Assembly: GCF_013116745.1 (NCBI RefSeq)
Contig: NZ_JABFOE010000003.1
Coordinates: 1 to 64,000, forward strand
Length of the DNA stretch: 64,000 nucleotides
Direction of reading: 5' to 3'
From: Arthrobacter sp. 260
GTDB lineage: Bacteria > Actinomycetota > Actinomycetes > Actinomycetales > Micrococcaceae
Shown here: positions 58,085-63,432 of the stretch, one piece after another
Layout: each line of letters starts with the position of its first letter
Position numbering within the stretch: the stretch's first letter is position 1
Position numbers and translations under genes: made by a program
The notes under the pieces: model-generated
The model's input: the letters and a program-made list of their open reading frames with translations, nothing else
Databases searched by the model: none
Told to the model about the DNA's origin: nothing

Positions 58085-59104
58085 TCATTCCTGGTGGGTG
58101 GCCTCGATGATCCGCAGGGCGGCGACGCTGTCCTGCGGATCCACCGGCGGCGGCGTCCCATGAAGCATTGCGGAGGCCATCAGCTCGTAGAACCTGGGGT
58201 ACTGGCCCTTCTCGGTGCTCACCTTCGTGGCGTCGGCGTCGAATCCGAGCAACCCCCAGGCCAGCTCATCCTCCACTCCATACAGGGGATCAGTGGGTAG
58301 CATGCCCGCAACGATTGACGGCTCCTGAACGTCCACTCCCCATTTGGAGTACGCCGACGTGGATCCGACCACCCTGAAGCGTGGCGCCGCCTGGGGTGCC
58401 AGCGCGTTCATCCACAGATGACTGATGGTCCCGTTGGCGTGGCGCAGGGCGAGGAAGGCGTCGTCGTCAGGGCCGCCGTCGCCCCGGTGGGCGGCAAGCT
58501 CCGCATACTGCAGTTCCGCCGGCCCGAACAGCGTCAGTGCCTGGTCGATCAAATGCGGCCCCAGATCGTAGAGGATCCCCCCACCGTCGCCCGCGGGGGC
58601 GCCCTTCCACGGCTTGGAGAGGACCGGTTTGAAGGATTCCATCCGGGATTCGAACCGCCGGATGCTGCCGAGCAGGCCTTCATCGACCAGTTTTCGAACC
58701 GTGAGGAAGTCCCCGTCCCAGCGCCGGTTCTGGAAAACGGTCAGGACGCTCCCGCGTGATCGGGCCAGTTCGATCAACCGGACGCCGTCAGCGGTATCAA
58801 TGACGAAAGGCTTGTCGACGACGACGGCGAGGCCGGCGTTCAGCGCATCCGTTGCCAGCGGGGCATGGGTTCCGGGTGGCGTGCTGATCACCGCCAGGTC
58901 AAGGTCCTTGGCCCGGGCAAACGCGTCCTGCGCTGTAGGGACCACCAGGACGCCCGGATAGAGCACCTCGGCTTCGGCCTTCCTGGCGGGGTCGGACGTA
59001 ACGATGACGTCGAGTGAGTAGCCAGGATCAGCGTGGATGAAGGGGGCGTGGAACACGCGCCCTCCGAGGCCGTAACCGAACACTGCGGTGCGGATTGTCG
59101 TCAT
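58085..59104 (-). CDS. Gfo/Idh/MocA-family oxidoreductase
   Basis: A 339-residue NAD(P)-dependent oxidoreductase. The Rossmann motif FGYGLGGRVFHAPFI is at 9-23, VVDKPF near 95-100 marks the family EKP site, and LYDLGPHLIDQAL near 180 is the usual catalytic helix. Substrate is probably a sugar or inositol-like polyol, but unknown. It ends next to ald, convergently. Confidence 0.9.
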   Translation of the reverse strand: MTTIRTAVFGYGLGGRVFHAPFIHADPGYSLDVIVTSDPARKAEAEVLYPGVLVVPTAQDAFARAKDLDLAVISTPPGTHAPLATDALNAGLAVVVDKPFVIDTADGVRLIELARSRGSVLTVFQNRRWDGDFLTVRKLVDEGLLGSIRRFESRMESFKPVLSKPWKGAPAGDGGGILYDLGPHLIDQALTLFGPAELQYAELAAHRGDGGPDDDAFLALRHANGTISHLWMNALAPQAAPRFRVVGSTSAYSKWGVDVQEPSIVAGMLPTDPLYGVEDELAWGLLGFDADATKVSTEKGQYPRFYELMASAMLHGTPPPVDPQDSVAALRIIEATHQE

Positions 59105-59169
59105 CCGCCCAGCCTACTGGTCACCGCTCGGCCTCTGCCGTTCAGGCGGGCTGCCCTGGGGGTGTTGGC

Positions 59170-59361
59170 TCAAGCCCAGAGGCTGTCAGCCCAGGCTGCG
59201 TCACGCAGGTAGTCGCGGGCTGGGCCAACTTCCCACAGTTCCCCGCGCGAGGCGAGAACCCCCAGATCACGCATGTCCTCAAGGGTGTCCGGCGAACATC
59301 CCAGGGCTTCGCTGAGTTCCCGTTCGTCTGTGGCCAAGATGACATCGTTGCTTGCCGCCAT
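59170..59361 (-). CDS. 63-residue acidic protein, last gene of the NWEWPK-peptide operon
   Basis: A 63-residue acidic protein without signal peptide, ending WADSLWA. The middle (LSEALGCSPDTLEDMRDLGV) could be a small helix-turn-helix, so it may be a DNA-binding protein; alternatively it may be a leader-type peptide for the adjacent LanB-like enzyme. ATG 59361 has GAGGAAGGA 10 bases upstream; a TTG three codons earlier is less suitable. It lies 51 bases after the enzyme gene and is probably in the same operon. Confidence 0.6.
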   Translation of the reverse strand: MAASNDVILATDERELSEALGCSPDTLEDMRDLGVLASRGELWEVGPARDYLRDAAWADSLWA

Positions 59362-59412
59362 GGTGTTCAAATCCTTCCTCGGTAACCTTGGGTGGTTCGG
59401 TACTCATCGCGC

Positions 59413-60483
59413 CTAGTTCTGGTCGTAGGAAGCAGCCTCCCGCTCGATGCTCCAGGAGCGGGCATACAGACCGAGCACTCCCTCCTCGCGAGTGGTGAAA
59501 CCCAGCCGGTTCAGGGTCATGTGTGCCTGGTACACGGTGAGGTGTTGCGCACTGCGGCTGACCCGCATCTTGTCGGCGCGGTACAGGTAGTTGTCGATCG
59601 CCCGAGCGTACCGGCGACGCCAGTTCTGGGCTGCGGATTCAGAGGCCGTCGCCGCCATCAGACCGTGGAACGCAGGCACCCGTGCGGCCACCTGGGCGGA
59701 CAATGCGTCCCGCACACCCCCGGAGCGCGGGCCCAGGTCTGCGGTGCACGTGCGGAGGTGGCTGTCCCAGTAGAAGTCCCACGAGATACGGCGGCGGTCA
59801 GGCCAGCCGGCCGATCGCGGGCCCTTCATCATGGCGCGTGCGGAATCGAACAGGATCAGTGCCCCAAACGCGGAGCGGCTCTGCATTTTGGGGAAGCGTT
59901 TCGTGGCCCAGGCGGCGAGTTCGGAGGACAGCTCGAAGACTTCTTCGGCCAGCTGCAGACCGTCGACGCCCCCGTACTTCACCAACTCGGCCTCAAGCCG
60001 CGGTTCGACGTCGATGGCTGCGGCCTGCGACGGAAAGTTTCCGGCGGGGCGGGAAAAGTTCTGGCGCACCCTCAGCTCCGACAGGATGCCGGCAGGGCTG
60101 GTCTCGTGGTGGCCGGGCAGCGACCCATGCTCCACGGTAGGAGGCTTGTTCGGCGCCTGGTACTTGTCCAGTGCGTGGTCCGGGCGTCGATCGGCGCCCG
60201 CCAACCCGCCGTGTTGCAGTGCGCTTAGGAAGGACTGCAGTTGAGCGGTCACCGCGGGGCACGCGAGGACATGCAGCTGCACATGGGCCCCCGCTGGTTC
60301 CTCACACCGTGTGAAGAACCAGCGGCTGGCTCCCAATTTCTGAGCCTGCGCCGCCAGTGGGGTGACCAGGTCTCCAATGATGCCGTCCGCTACATCGAAG
60401 CCACCGGTAAAGACGGAGAGGTGCCACCATTGAGCGCTGTCTGCTGTTCGTGAGGCGATGCGAACTGCTGTCAGCTGGCTCAT
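59413..60483 (-). CDS. Stand-alone LanB C-terminal-domain-like protein (thiopeptide-type/SpaB_C-like)
   Basis: A 356-residue protein resembling the C-terminal elimination domain of lantibiotic dehydratases and the related thiopeptide-type enzymes. Its N-terminus has the family pattern: QWWHLSVFTGGFD (about 18-30), a helix, then RWFFTRCEEPAGAHVQLHV (about 54-72), corresponding to the W-(Y/F)-F-x-R-Y-x-D-P-x-H-L-R-L-R signature. The canonical RLR end is altered to QLH. No glutamylation-domain LanB is nearby. It starts 87 bases after the NWEWPK peptide gene, so the peptide is its likely partner or substrate. Confidence 0.65.
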   Translation of the reverse strand: MSQLTAVRIASRTADSAQWWHLSVFTGGFDVADGIIGDLVTPLAAQAQKLGASRWFFTRCEEPAGAHVQLHVLACPAVTAQLQSFLSALQHGGLAGADRRPDHALDKYQAPNKPPTVEHGSLPGHHETSPAGILSELRVRQNFSRPAGNFPSQAAAIDVEPRLEAELVKYGGVDGLQLAEEVFELSSELAAWATKRFPKMQSRSAFGALILFDSARAMMKGPRSAGWPDRRRISWDFYWDSHLRTCTADLGPRSGGVRDALSAQVAARVPAFHGLMAATASESAAQNWRRRYARAIDNYLYRADKMRVSRSAQHLTVYQAHMTLNRLGFTTREEGVLGLYARSWSIEREAASYDQN

Positions 60484-60570
60484 GGCCCTTTCCTTCCGGA
60501 TATATGGTCACCGCCACTGGGGCGAGTCTGTTGTGCTGTCCCGCCGATCAGATCCGGCGCGAACAGCCAG

Positions 60571-60741
60571 CTATTTGGGCCACTCCCAATTGCTGGCCAC
60601 CACTGTCTTGGGCCATTCCCAATTGGCAGCGACGACCGTTTTCGGCCATTCCCAGTTGGCTGCACTGAGTGCTGGGCTTGCGGGTGCCACGACGCCGATG
60701 ACAACCAGAAGTCCAGCTGCGGTACCGACAATCTTTTTCAC
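60571..60741 (-). CDS. Secreted 56-residue peptide with three NWEWPK repeats
   Basis: A GTG start at 60741 with GGAGGGG seven bases upstream gives 56 residues. Residues 1-27 are a Sec signal peptide (KK, hydrophobic core to 19, ending PALSA). The rest consists of the units ANWEWPKTVVA (28-38), ANWEWPKTVVA (39-49) and SNWEWPK (50-56). The units share amino acids but differ at many synonymous positions, a sign of selection on the peptide. It heads an operon with the LanB-like protein and is divergent from a LuxR-type regulator. No known family is recognised; candidate secreted signal or modified peptide. Confidence 0.8.
   Translation of the reverse strand: MKKIVGTAAGLLVVIGVVAPASPALSAANWEWPKTVVAANWEWPKTVVASNWEWPK
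60574..60660 (-). repeat. Three in-frame 33-base repeat units encoding NWEWPKTVVA
   Basis: Units lie at 60628-60660, 60595-60627 and 60574-60594 (last one truncated by the stop). The first two encode identical 11-residue units yet differ at seven codons, all synonymous. The third differs from the second at three codons, one of which changes Ala to Ser. Protein sequence is therefore conserved beyond DNA identity. Confidence 0.9.
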
Positions 60742-61120
60742 GAGATTCCCCTCCGAGTGGCTGCCAGTGGTGCTTGACCGGCAAGGAGTAGCCGGTATCC
60801 CTACAATGCGGCGGCCGCTCTGCCCCTGTCCAGCCGGATCACCACCCTGTTCTGGACATGGCCTAAAGAGGACTAGACGCGATCTGAGGGCAGTGATCAA
60901 AGGTACCCGAATGATCCGGAAAGGCCGCTCTGACATGGGGATTCGTCACATCCGACCGGTTCCTGCCAAAGTCCCTGATATTGATGTCATTAAGTGGACA
61001 TGTCATGATTTAACCGGGCCATTTTGGGCAGGTCAGCTCGCACAGACACCAAATCGTTCGACGGTGAAACGGGTCTGTAGGCTACAGTCAGGCGTGCCGC
61101 CATGCCGGGGAGGAAAGTTC
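60742..61120. promoter_or_regulatory. Divergent promoter region of the peptide operon and its regulator
   Basis: This 379-base gap holds no supported gene. TGGACATG occurs at 60853-60860 and 60995-61002, TGACATG at 60931-60937, and ATGTCAT copies at 60984-60990 and 61000-61006; these related boxes may be binding sites of the adjacent LuxR-type regulator. An ACCGGC/GCCGGT hairpin (60777-60796) lies in the likely peptide mRNA leader. Promoter elements could not be assigned with confidence. Confidence 0.4.
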
Positions 61121-62089
61121 ATGCTTGACGGAATATGCCTGGAACTCTATCGCTACGCCGTCGCCCATCCGGGCTGGACACGGCAGCAAGTTTCCGAGGC
61201 CCTCGGCTACACCCTGCGGGACATCGACGCTGCCATGGAGCAACTGACCCAGCGCAAGCTGCTCAGTGTCCACGCCGCGGACCCCGACGCCTATGTCGCG
61301 GTCTCGCCTGATGTTGCGCTGGCGGATCTGGTGGACGCGGACGAGCGCCTGGTACAGGACCTCAGGAGCCGGATCAGCACCAAACGCCGGGAGTTGTCCG
61401 GACTGGTCCCCCTTTACCTGGAGGCCCGCAAGGAAGTGATTTCCAGCGCTTCAGTGGAGGTCCTGGAAGATCCGCATCTGATCCAGCGTGTCCTCATCGA
61501 GTATGGCCGGGATGTTTCGGAGCAGGTCCTGATGGCCGTCCCCGGCCAGGGCGCCAATGCCGACTTCCAGGAGGAGAACGTCCGAAAGGATCTCGACCTG
61601 CTGAAGCAAGGGGTCAGCCGAAGGAACCTTTACGATCTCAGCACCCGGGACCATATGCCGACCCGTAAAGCGGTCAAGCTGATAGCGGCGGCGGGCGGCC
61701 AGTTCAGGACACTGCCCTCGGTTCCTTTTCGGATGCTGATCTTCGACCGGAAGCTGGCCGTTGTGGCACGCCAGCTCAACAGCACCGATAAGGCCGCGAT
61801 GATGATCCGGGATCCCAGCCTGGTCAGTGTCTTCATCAAGGTGTTCAATTCGACCTGGGAGTTCGCTGACCCGTTCGTGGCCGAGGAGGAAACCACCTCA
61901 GCGCTCAGCGGTACCCAACAAGCCATCCTCGCAGGACTGGCTGCGGGGTACTCGGACGAGGTCATTGCCCGCCGGTTGGATCTGAGCGTGCGGACGTGTC
62001 GACGCCATATCGCCTGGATGCTCGAAACGCTGAAGGCCGACAGTCGTTTTCAGGCTGGGGCCAAAGCGAGGGACGCGGGCTGGATCTGA
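61121..62089 (+). CDS. LuxR-type regulator with TrmB-like N-terminal HTH, divergent from the peptide operon
   Basis: A 322-residue regulator. The N-terminal 70 residues form a winged helix of TrmB-like type (LELYRYAVAHPGWTRQQVSE), a middle domain with phospholipase-D/TrmB-like pattern follows, and the C-terminal 60 residues are a LuxR helix-turn-helix (ILAGLAAGYSDEVIARRLDL, SVRTCRRHIAWMLETL). Similar regulators occur beside actinobacterial natural-product and RiPP genes. ATG 61121 has GGGGAGGAAAG upstream. It probably controls the NWEWPK peptide operon. Confidence 0.8.
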   Translation: MLDGICLELYRYAVAHPGWTRQQVSEALGYTLRDIDAAMEQLTQRKLLSVHAADPDAYVAVSPDVALADLVDADERLVQDLRSRISTKRRELSGLVPLYLEARKEVISSASVEVLEDPHLIQRVLIEYGRDVSEQVLMAVPGQGANADFQEENVRKDLDLLKQGVSRRNLYDLSTRDHMPTRKAVKLIAAAGGQFRTLPSVPFRMLIFDRKLAVVARQLNSTDKAAMMIRDPSLVSVFIKVFNSTWEFADPFVAEEETTSALSGTQQAILAGLAAGYSDEVIARRLDLSVRTCRRHIAWMLETLKADSRFQAGAKARDAGWI

Positions 62090-62136
62090 GGCAACACTCG
62101 TTGCTCATTGGTTAACCGCTGGCTTAGACTGCGTGA

Positions 62137-63432
62137 GTGAACTCACACGCAAACCTTGATCCGACATCCCTGCCCGCAGAAACCGAGGCGGCGCTCGTTC
62201 GAGCAGTCGACTCGGCCCACCGTCATGAGGCGTTGTTTTCCGATCGGGCTGCCAACATCAAGCAATCGGCGGTACGGGATGTCTTCGACATTTCCATCCA
62301 GCCGGGCCTGGTCTCGCTGGCCGGAGGAAGCCCCTATCTTCGGTCCCTGCCCCTGCAGGAGCTCGGCAACACTGCACAGCGGATCATCGCCGACCACGGC
62401 CTGGAAGCCTTGCAGTACGGCGGAGGTCAGGGGATGGAGAAACTCCGCCGCCAGATTTGCGAGGTCATGGCAGCAGAGGGGATCACAGGTGCTGATCCCG
62501 ACGATTTGGTCATCACGACCGGATCACAGTCGGCGCAGGACGTCGCCGCCAAGGTCTTCTGCAATCCCGGCGACGTCATCCTCTGCGAGGACCCCACCTA
62601 CGTGGGGGCGCTAAACACCTTCGAGGCGTACCAGGTGGATGTCCAGGCGGTCGCGATGGATGACAATGGTCTGGTCCCTGAGGAACTCCAGAAGAGGATC
62701 ACCGAGCTTCAGGCCGAGGGCCGCACCATCAAGGCGCTCTACACGATCCCCAGCTTCAACAATCCCAGTGGGATCACTCTCGCGGCAGACCGGCGGCAGG
62801 TCATTGTCGACATCTGCACCGCCCACAACATCCTGATCCTGGAGGACAATCCGTACGGGCTGTTGCGCTTCGACGGCAAGCCGTTGACGCCCATGCGGGA
62901 GGGCAACCCTGACGACGTCATCTACCTGGGGTCCTTCTCCAAGATTTTCGCGCCGGGTGTGCGACTGGGGTGGGCGCTGGTGCCCAAGCATTTGCACCGG
63001 CGCTTCTATCTCGCCTGCGAGGCTGTGGTGCTGTGCCCGTCTCCCCTGACCCAGATGCTGGTCTCGGCCTACCTCAGCGACTACGACTGGCTGGGACACC
63101 TGGAAAATACCCGGGAGCTCTACAGCGAGCGGTGCTCCACCATGCTGGCGGCCCTGGAGCAGCACCTGCCTGCGTCGGTGACATGGACCCGCCCAGACGG
63201 TGGATTCTTCATCTGGGTTACCCTGCCCGAAGGGATCGACACCTACCCGCTGCTCTACCAGGCGATCGATGCGGGAGTGGTGTTTATCCCCGGCGCTGCA
63301 TTCACGCCCTCCGATGAGCCGTCCAACAAGCTACGGCTCGCCTTCAGCGCCGTCTCCAGTGAAGATATCGTCACGGGCATCGAGCGGCTTGCCCCGATCC
63401 TGCAGAAGGCCATCGAGGTGAACCGTGCGTAA
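62137..63432 (+). CDS. PLP-dependent aminotransferase (2-aminoadipate/valine-pyruvate type)
   Basis: A 431-residue fold-type I aminotransferase of the MocR-related/LysN group without the GntR domain. YGGGQGMEKLRRQI near 94, TTGSQSAQDVAAKV near 128, TIPSFNNPSGITL near 207, EDNPYGLLRFDG near 238 and the PLP lysine in LGSFSKIFAPGVRLGW near 268-283 are visible. GTG 62137 is the likely start. Substrate may be 2-aminoadipate, branched-chain or aromatic amino acid. It is downstream of the LuxR gene on the same strand but probably independent of it. Confidence 0.9.
   Translation: MNSHANLDPTSLPAETEAALVRAVDSAHRHEALFSDRAANIKQSAVRDVFDISIQPGLVSLAGGSPYLRSLPLQELGNTAQRIIADHGLEALQYGGGQGMEKLRRQICEVMAAEGITGADPDDLVITTGSQSAQDVAAKVFCNPGDVILCEDPTYVGALNTFEAYQVDVQAVAMDDNGLVPEELQKRITELQAEGRTIKALYTIPSFNNPSGITLAADRRQVIVDICTAHNILILEDNPYGLLRFDGKPLTPMREGNPDDVIYLGSFSKIFAPGVRLGWALVPKHLHRRFYLACEAVVLCPSPLTQMLVSAYLSDYDWLGHLENTRELYSERCSTMLAALEQHLPASVTWTRPDGGFFIWVTLPEGIDTYPLLYQAIDAGVVFIPGAAFTPSDEPSNKLRLAFSAVSSEDIVTGIERLAPILQKAIEVNRA

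Follow-up and report, generated by a model that had tools for sequence, protein, structure and literature searches.

A tiny W-x-W gene between a regulator and a remodelled LanB_C-like gene suggests an undescribed peptide signal in Arthrobacter

A stretch of 64,000 nucleotides from Arthrobacter sp. 260 (contig NZ_JABFOE010000003.1, positions 1 to 64,000), which we refer to as the window, contains a short open reading frame in which a tryptophan-rich motif is repeated behind an apparent secretion signal, between genes for a LanB-like protein and a LuxR-type regulator. This arrangement raises the question of whether the frame is a genuine gene and, if so, whether its product is a secreted signal, an antimicrobial or a modified multi-core peptide, the three possibilities named in a preliminary description of the locus. 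Actinobacteria are known mostly for small-molecule signals, and no regulator of the TrmB/LuxR type is known to us to bind a peptide. A search of the literature (open-licence PMC papers) returned no description of such a cassette or peptide circuit in Actinobacteria, and the motif strings gave only unrelated matches.

The peptide gene and its conserved setting

The protein-coding features of the cassette in the window, with the parts of the peptide gene, are as follows.

59170..59370, minus strand: small conserved ORF of 66 aa downstream of the LanB_C-like gene, a possible cassette member with no Pfam family
59413..60483, minus strand: orphan LanB_C-like protein (PF14028), 356 aa (Pfam Lant_dehydr_C, E 3.5e-20)
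60571..60741 including the stop, minus strand: gene for the W-x-W precursor of 56 aa, starting with GTG (translation; homologues in 53/53 named loci that have the regulator and a divergent LanB_C)
60574..60594, minus strand: unit 3, SNWEWPK, C-terminal (codon comparison)
60595..60627, minus strand: unit 2, ANWEWPKTVVA (codon comparison)
60628..60660, minus strand: unit 1, ANWEWPKTVVA (codon comparison)
60661..60741, minus strand: Sec-type signal peptide, residues 1-27, with a PALSA end (inspection; hydrophobic-stretch scores of homologues)
60748..60754, minus strand: ribosome site GGAGGGG of the peptide gene (sequence)
61121..62089, plus strand: regulator of 322 aa, with a TrmB-like N-terminal part bearing a PLD-like/TrmB effector domain and a LuxR-type (GerE) C-terminal HTH (Pfam and structure model)

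Translated from the GTG at 60741 to 60571 on the minus strand, the precursor reads VKKIVGTAAGLLVVIGVVAPASPALSA-ANWEWPKTVVA-ANWEWPKTVVA-SNWEWPK*, which bears out the Sec signal and three units of the preliminary description, Sec signals being called here by inspection and a hydrophobicity score. The codon counts given there were also exact: between units 1 and 2, 7 of 11 codons differ, always synonymously, and between units 2 and 3, 3 of 7 do, including one Ala-to-Ser change. A recent duplication of the units was set aside in view of the seven differing codons of units 1 and 2. As had been claimed, the peptide belongs to no known family that we could recognize, since no match in Pfam, NCBIfam or PADLOC reached the cut-off; its sole NCBIfam line was SGM_5486, at 12.9 bits against a cut-off of 35. 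The region 59000-62200 had no Rfam match up to E 1.

To place the gene among relatives we used a set of loci obtained by scanning titled genome records with an alignment of the regulator, from which the best 80 of 523 confirmed loci were kept. These comprise 53 loci with a divergent LanB_C-like gene, 2 with neither LanB_C nor peptide, and 25 distant regulators without a cassette. In all 53 loci with regulator and divergent LanB_C, which share kinship and do not amount to 53 independent events, the gap holds a small ORF that is preceded by a ribosome site and contains [WY]xW. In dinucleotide-shuffled gaps (20 rounds) the same detector picked up 2.25 of 53 on average and never more than 4, and on the antisense strand it picked up 5. 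The preliminary description had proposed a real gene family with conserved neighbours, a view to which absence of the peptide beside a retained enzyme and regulator would be damaging; no such case occurs among the 53, and in the two loci that lack the peptide, those of A. gandavensis JCM 13316 (L164) and Arthrobacter sp. ATA002 (L167), the regulator is present but LanB_C is absent as well.

Within the genus the regulator is present in 38 of 38 genomes. A small ORF with one to three [SN]W[DE]WPK copies adjoins it in 30/30 genus loci fetched, LanB_C coming next in every one, and the remaining eight genomes are alike, as seen directly (L031, L032, L033, L038, L039) or via matching contig coordinates (L142, L146, L148). 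The 66-aa ORF adjoins LanB_C in 15 of the 20 twenty-kb loci and was not found in L101-L103, L107 and L108. A mobile element was considered and rejected, the genus loci having the same chromosomal neighbours and LanB_C having no plasmid match. On the other side of the regulator, an aminotransferase-family gene (62137-63432, plus strand) follows in 19 of the 20 twenty-kb loci, sometimes at a distance, and an ORF of its size and place stays in L164.

The cassette was seen in the Arthrobacter group, in the MAG locus L184 and in G045. It does not accompany every bearer of the regulator, since no cassette-like case emerged when W-x-W ORFs were sought within 900 bases upstream of distant regulators (24 of the 25 loci L044-L068, L058 having given no match, and the 25 cassette-less named loci). 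Of four matches in that scan, three lie on the regulator's strand (L060, L062, L064) and one, in L172, is divergent but antisense to its LanB_C; a separate look at 11 loci gave three W-x-W matches in L172 and one in L178, all unconvincing. In three of the 25 distant-regulator loci (L172, L177, L178) a LanB_C relative lies on the same strand as the regulator. L084, L085 and L086 (G009, G027, G033) are additional, distant copies of the regulator, with 28-35% identity, situated 14-19 kb from the cassette, and no convincing W-x-W ORF was found beside them.

A constant core in variable precursors

Across these loci the W-x-W core is the constant part of the precursor, and neither the signal peptide nor the repeats are essential to it. 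A Sec-type signal is present in 38 of the 53 precursors and absent from 15, with L143 counted as signal-bearing; 33 of 53 have a single core copy. The secreted repeat peptide of the preliminary description is therefore a family trait in its core only, and not in its secretion or repetition. Signal-bearing forms carry one to three SWDWPK or NWEWPK units, four or six VWDWPQ units, or a single AWDW, IWDW, IWDWKN or IWGWPQKT end. Forms with no signal include MEKATGSTVSIKSWEWF, MEKVTGSTVSIKSWEWF, MKKATAPVSIKSWEWF, MKKVTAPVSIKSWEWF and MNRIRISVAGSKSWEWF, and the gene has seven residues, MKSWDWF, in five named loci (L158, L159, L161, L166, L176). A. yangruifuii has this MKSWDWF form, whereas the A. 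agilis type strain has a signal followed by repeats. The three SWDWPK units of H5 (L121) are not preceded by a signal. Among more distant relatives, L184 encodes MTASAARRIWAWPESWPILGRK, and G045 has YDWP near its end (read by eye). The core lies 0 to 10 residues from the stop, or 14 in L143, where the second unit is broken. Most cores retain Asp or Glu, and Pro-Lys is conserved across the whole SWDWPK/NWEWPK clade.

In a tree of the regulators, the 13 signal-less SWEWF/SWDWF forms cluster with the two peptide-less loci at a support of 91/92, which is under the tool's mark for firm support. H5 falls among signal-bearing relatives (99/89), and the signal has thus most likely been lost at least there. 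The deep forks of this tree are unsure, and L108, L184 and L178 sit on long branches. One sequence titled Vibrio cholerae strain 35D (L133, WNZI01000025.1) has the Arthrobacter cassette and groups with the A. agilis-type regulators; its label looks wrong.

The strong amino-acid selection that had been supposed from three units is supported by comparison between genes. Among 12 A. agilis-type genes, pairwise differences in the core number 125 synonymous and 0 nonsynonymous; the corresponding counts are 19 and 0 for 4 A. subterraneus-type genes and 37 and 0 for unit pairs inside one gene, although genes and units were picked by the core pattern (two intact cores), which biases the nonsynonymous counts of the core downwards. 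In the same 12 genes pN/pS is 0.37 for the signal region and 0.64 for the spacers, and the signal region is accordingly under purifying selection in the genes measured.

The regulator, the divergent gap and a candidate peptide signal

The LuxR-type regulator named in the preliminary description is confirmed by a GerE match (PF00196, E 7.7e-8), and the structure model shows an N-terminal part of the TrmB/PLD-like effector type. No TPR domain was matched in Pfam up to E 0.1, the matches being to GerE and other HTH families, and at the same threshold there was no autoinducer-binding domain. The protein thus differs from LuxR/AHL regulators in having no such domain at that threshold, and from the TrmB family (TrmBL2, TrmB) in its extra C-terminal LuxR-type HTH.

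Three conserved elements were identified in the non-coding DNA around the peptide gene.

60985..61005, minus strand: operator-like box A, TGACATGTCCACTTAATGACA (enrichment; no second copy in the genome with up to 3 mismatches allowed)
60842..60863, minus strand: operator-like box B, GGCCATGTCCAGAACAGGGTGG (4 close genomes each have their sole perfect match here)
60505..60526, minus strand: conserved leader element CTCGCCCCAGTGGCGGTGACCA before the LanB_C start (alignment of 15 sequences)

Box A is the nearer to the regulator, and box B lies roughly 110-170 bases before the peptide start in the loci inspected. The sequence GGACATGTCC, with at most one mismatch, occurs 46 times in 36 of the 53 gaps, against 0.66 occurrences in a control of single-base (not dinucleotide) shuffles; an exact six-base probe found only one of the two boxes in 4 of 16 loci inspected. 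Searched in its 21-base form with up to 3 mismatches allowed, box A gave a single occurrence in each of 6/6 genomes, always at the cassette locus, while the control gave one match in one genome, and no target of a wider box A regulon was found outside the locus in these 6 genomes. Matches to box B with 3 mismatches are no commoner elsewhere than in the control. The leader element, as CGCCCCAGYGGNGGTRACCA, is likewise found once per genome before LanB_C in 5/5 genomes, with a control of 0. It contains a possible small hairpin (60505-60526, minus strand, and the gaps of L119-L175) and may control LanB_C translation. Promoter-like or terminator-like sites of the simple consensus kind were not found between 60400 and 61200.

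The reading that we favour, with a probability of about one in two, is that the cassette would operate as a closed peptide-signal circuit, Rgg-like in its working but made of different proteins. The small gene would supply a W-x-W peptide in one or more copies; in most species the Sec signal would export the precursor and proteases would free the units, and the TVVA spacer of the window resembles, by inspection, sites of the signal-peptidase type. The peptide would then re-enter the cell, probably via an oligopeptide permease (the genome has eight SBP_bac_5 matches, of the oligopeptide-binding type), and act on the divergently encoded TrmB/LuxR-type regulator, which would control its own promoter and a peptide-LanB_C operon through the boxes between them. 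We infer both this operon and the direction of the regulation. The LanB_C-like protein, having kept a peptide-handling fold and largely lost its elimination residues, would most likely bind or mature the peptide.

A peptide signal is favoured because the divergent layout, the boxes, the C-terminal W-x-W core and the occurrence of leader-bearing and leaderless precursors match Rgg systems, the PatS group being similar. SHPs and leaderless peptides occur within one kind of Rgg system (PMC13361665), and the pheromone of RtgR/RtgS carries a Trp-X-Trp motif (PMC7018657). Like RtgR/RtgS and like RopB with its leaderless SIP, MWLLLLFL, the present cassette has a small ORF divergent from the adjoining regulator, and it shares with these systems a W-x-W near the C-terminus and precursors with and without a leader (PMC7018657, PMC13361665). 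The pairing of a small peptide gene with a regulator, a trait of RRNPP/Rgg systems, is found at 53/53 LanB_C loci, with the regulator alone in L164 and L167. Unlike Rgg systems, the present one occurs in another phylum, has a TrmB/LuxR-like regulator with no TPR match, and combines a Sec signal, tandem copies and an orphan LanB_C after the peptide. PatS, HetN and PatX of cyanobacteria offer a second likeness, since there a single short motif (RG(S/T)GR) occurs in several distinct precursors and acts on the transcription factor HetR (PMC7761841); regulator and motif are unrelated to ours, and the available part of that source describes no divergent peptide-enzyme cassette.

Several observations tell against the favoured circuit. 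It would be odd for a signal to control nothing but its own synthesis, and the occurrence of box A at this locus alone fits a product that is itself an effector. The 15 of 53 precursors that have no signal leave export unexplained in those species, the second unit of L143 is broken, and the regulator may have another input, as L164 and L167 keep it without peptide or LanB_C. Still, the conservation of the tiny W-x-W gene between the regulator and the remodelled LanB_C gene, in one branch as a gene of seven residues, suggests an undescribed peptide signal, and a signal is favoured over the antimicrobial that the preliminary description had offered beside it. We tentatively extend this to a pheromone system of Actinobacteria in which a TrmB/LuxR-type protein might be the receptor of the W-x-W peptide and a catalytically dead LanB domain its dedicated binding or maturation partner, with precursors that are multi-copy and secreted or only seven codons long. 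Such a candidate would be compact, comprising two adjacent proteins and a hexapeptide that can be synthesized, and the natural series from multi-copy secreted precursor to seven-residue gene would help in asking how secretion leaders come and go in peptide signals. Genes of 7 aa are easily overlooked by annotation, and comparable systems may therefore have been missed elsewhere.

The LanB_C-like partner and alternative readings

The main alternative is a minimal RiPP locus, in which the W-x-W peptide would be the substrate of the LanB_C-like protein for a new chemistry based on Trp, Asp/Glu or Lys and be exported as an effector (an antimicrobial or metal ligand), the regulator serving only as a switch. 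The structure model gives the protein a LanB elimination/pyridine-synthase fold about equally close to the pyridine synthases TbtD and PbtD, and regulator relatives do stand beside RiPP genes. In Cellulomonas uda, a YcaO gene (L171:1301-3223) and a Cys/Ser/Thr-rich small ORF ending in CSSSSSTSTCSSTTSTTSCTA (L171:4709-4882, plus strand) lie beside a regulator of the same family in what looks like a thiopeptide-type locus, and Zimmermannella (L172) and Paeniglutamicibacter (L177) have LanB_N/LanB_C pairs by theirs. Of the HMxxNR motif, H is retained by 50 and N by 49 of the 53 orphans, and the restriction of box A to the cassette locus would suit a product that is the output.

Against this stand the state of the protein and the make-up of the peptide. 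The Arg/Arg/Glu positions (RxR and E), which we take from work on NisB to be catalytic in the elimination domain, are complete in 8/8 partnered homologues and in 1/53 orphans (L162), in a count that left out L117 and L149 (length), L118 (no match), L178 (too divergent) and L122; among the partnered homologues LanB_N is Pfam-confirmed in L113, L172 and L177, while L111, L112, L114, L115 and L116 have only similar upstream frames. The protein of the window has Q, H and E at these positions; MibB has RxR in the alignment. With the LanB_N of L177 as query, 0/9 Arthrobacter-type genomes matched and both positive controls (G059, G724) did; a PF04738 search gave 0/18, but carries no weight by itself, its control giving 0/14. 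The core has no need of Ser, Thr or Cys, which are absent from NWEWPK, VWDWPQ and IWDWKN, SWDWPK having one Ser and the window's TVVA spacer one Thr. No exporter, protease or immunity gene is among the 12 window genes tested for synteny, and the Sec-type signal of most precursors is not a usual RiPP leader. The cassette therefore differs from class I LanB elimination domains (NisB, MibB, MadB) and the pyridine synthases TbtD, PbtD and TsrL in that no LanB_N was found, RxR/E is incomplete in 52/53 orphans and the core does without Ser, Thr and Cys.

On these grounds the RiPP locus is less likely than the signal circuit. Its ordinary form, lanthipeptide-style modification by the LanB_C-like protein, is unlikely given the eroded catalytic residues and the lack of a LanB_N in the 9 Arthrobacter-type genomes, and so is that part of the multi-core modified peptide envisaged earlier. 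The "LanB-like" neighbour of the preliminary description is real as a PF14028 match, but is an orphan elimination-domain protein with eroded residues, and presents a RiPP enzyme domain retained after the loss of its partner and most of its catalytic residues.

A second alternative makes the small ORF a regulatory leader, either a translated attenuator or an arrest peptide, that would set the level of LanB_C expression, for example through Trp supply or ribosome stalling. Its position would suit this: in the window 87 bases separate the peptide gene from the LanB_C start on the same strand, in 50 of the 53 loci, those measured, the ORF stops 76-121 nt short of LanB_C, and the conserved leader element lies before the LanB_C start. 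The shortest ORF, of 7 aa, has two Trp codons, and hairpin-like sequences follow the ORF in some relatives (by eye). We nevertheless consider attenuation quite improbable, because residues other than Trp are conserved (Asp/Glu in most cores, Pro-Lys in the SWDWPK/NWEWPK clade), up to six tandem units behind a Sec signal would be of no use to an attenuator, and the distance from core to stop varies in a way unlike a stall site; the search of 60400-61200 yielded no terminator-like site of the simple consensus kind.

Least probable of all is a cofactor peptide that would bind the LanB_C-like protein or the regulator within the producer, its Sec signals serving for disposal only, for while the signal-less precursors and the joint absence of peptide and LanB_C in L164 and L167 would fit it, the Sec-type signal is kept in most precursors and its region is under constraint in the 12 genes measured.

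One cassette locus (L134) sits on the chromosome of Arthrobacter sp. UMCV2, for which luxR-type genes are listed, some of them induced by dimethylhexadecylamine, none being equated with the present regulator in the available part of that source (PMC9659744).
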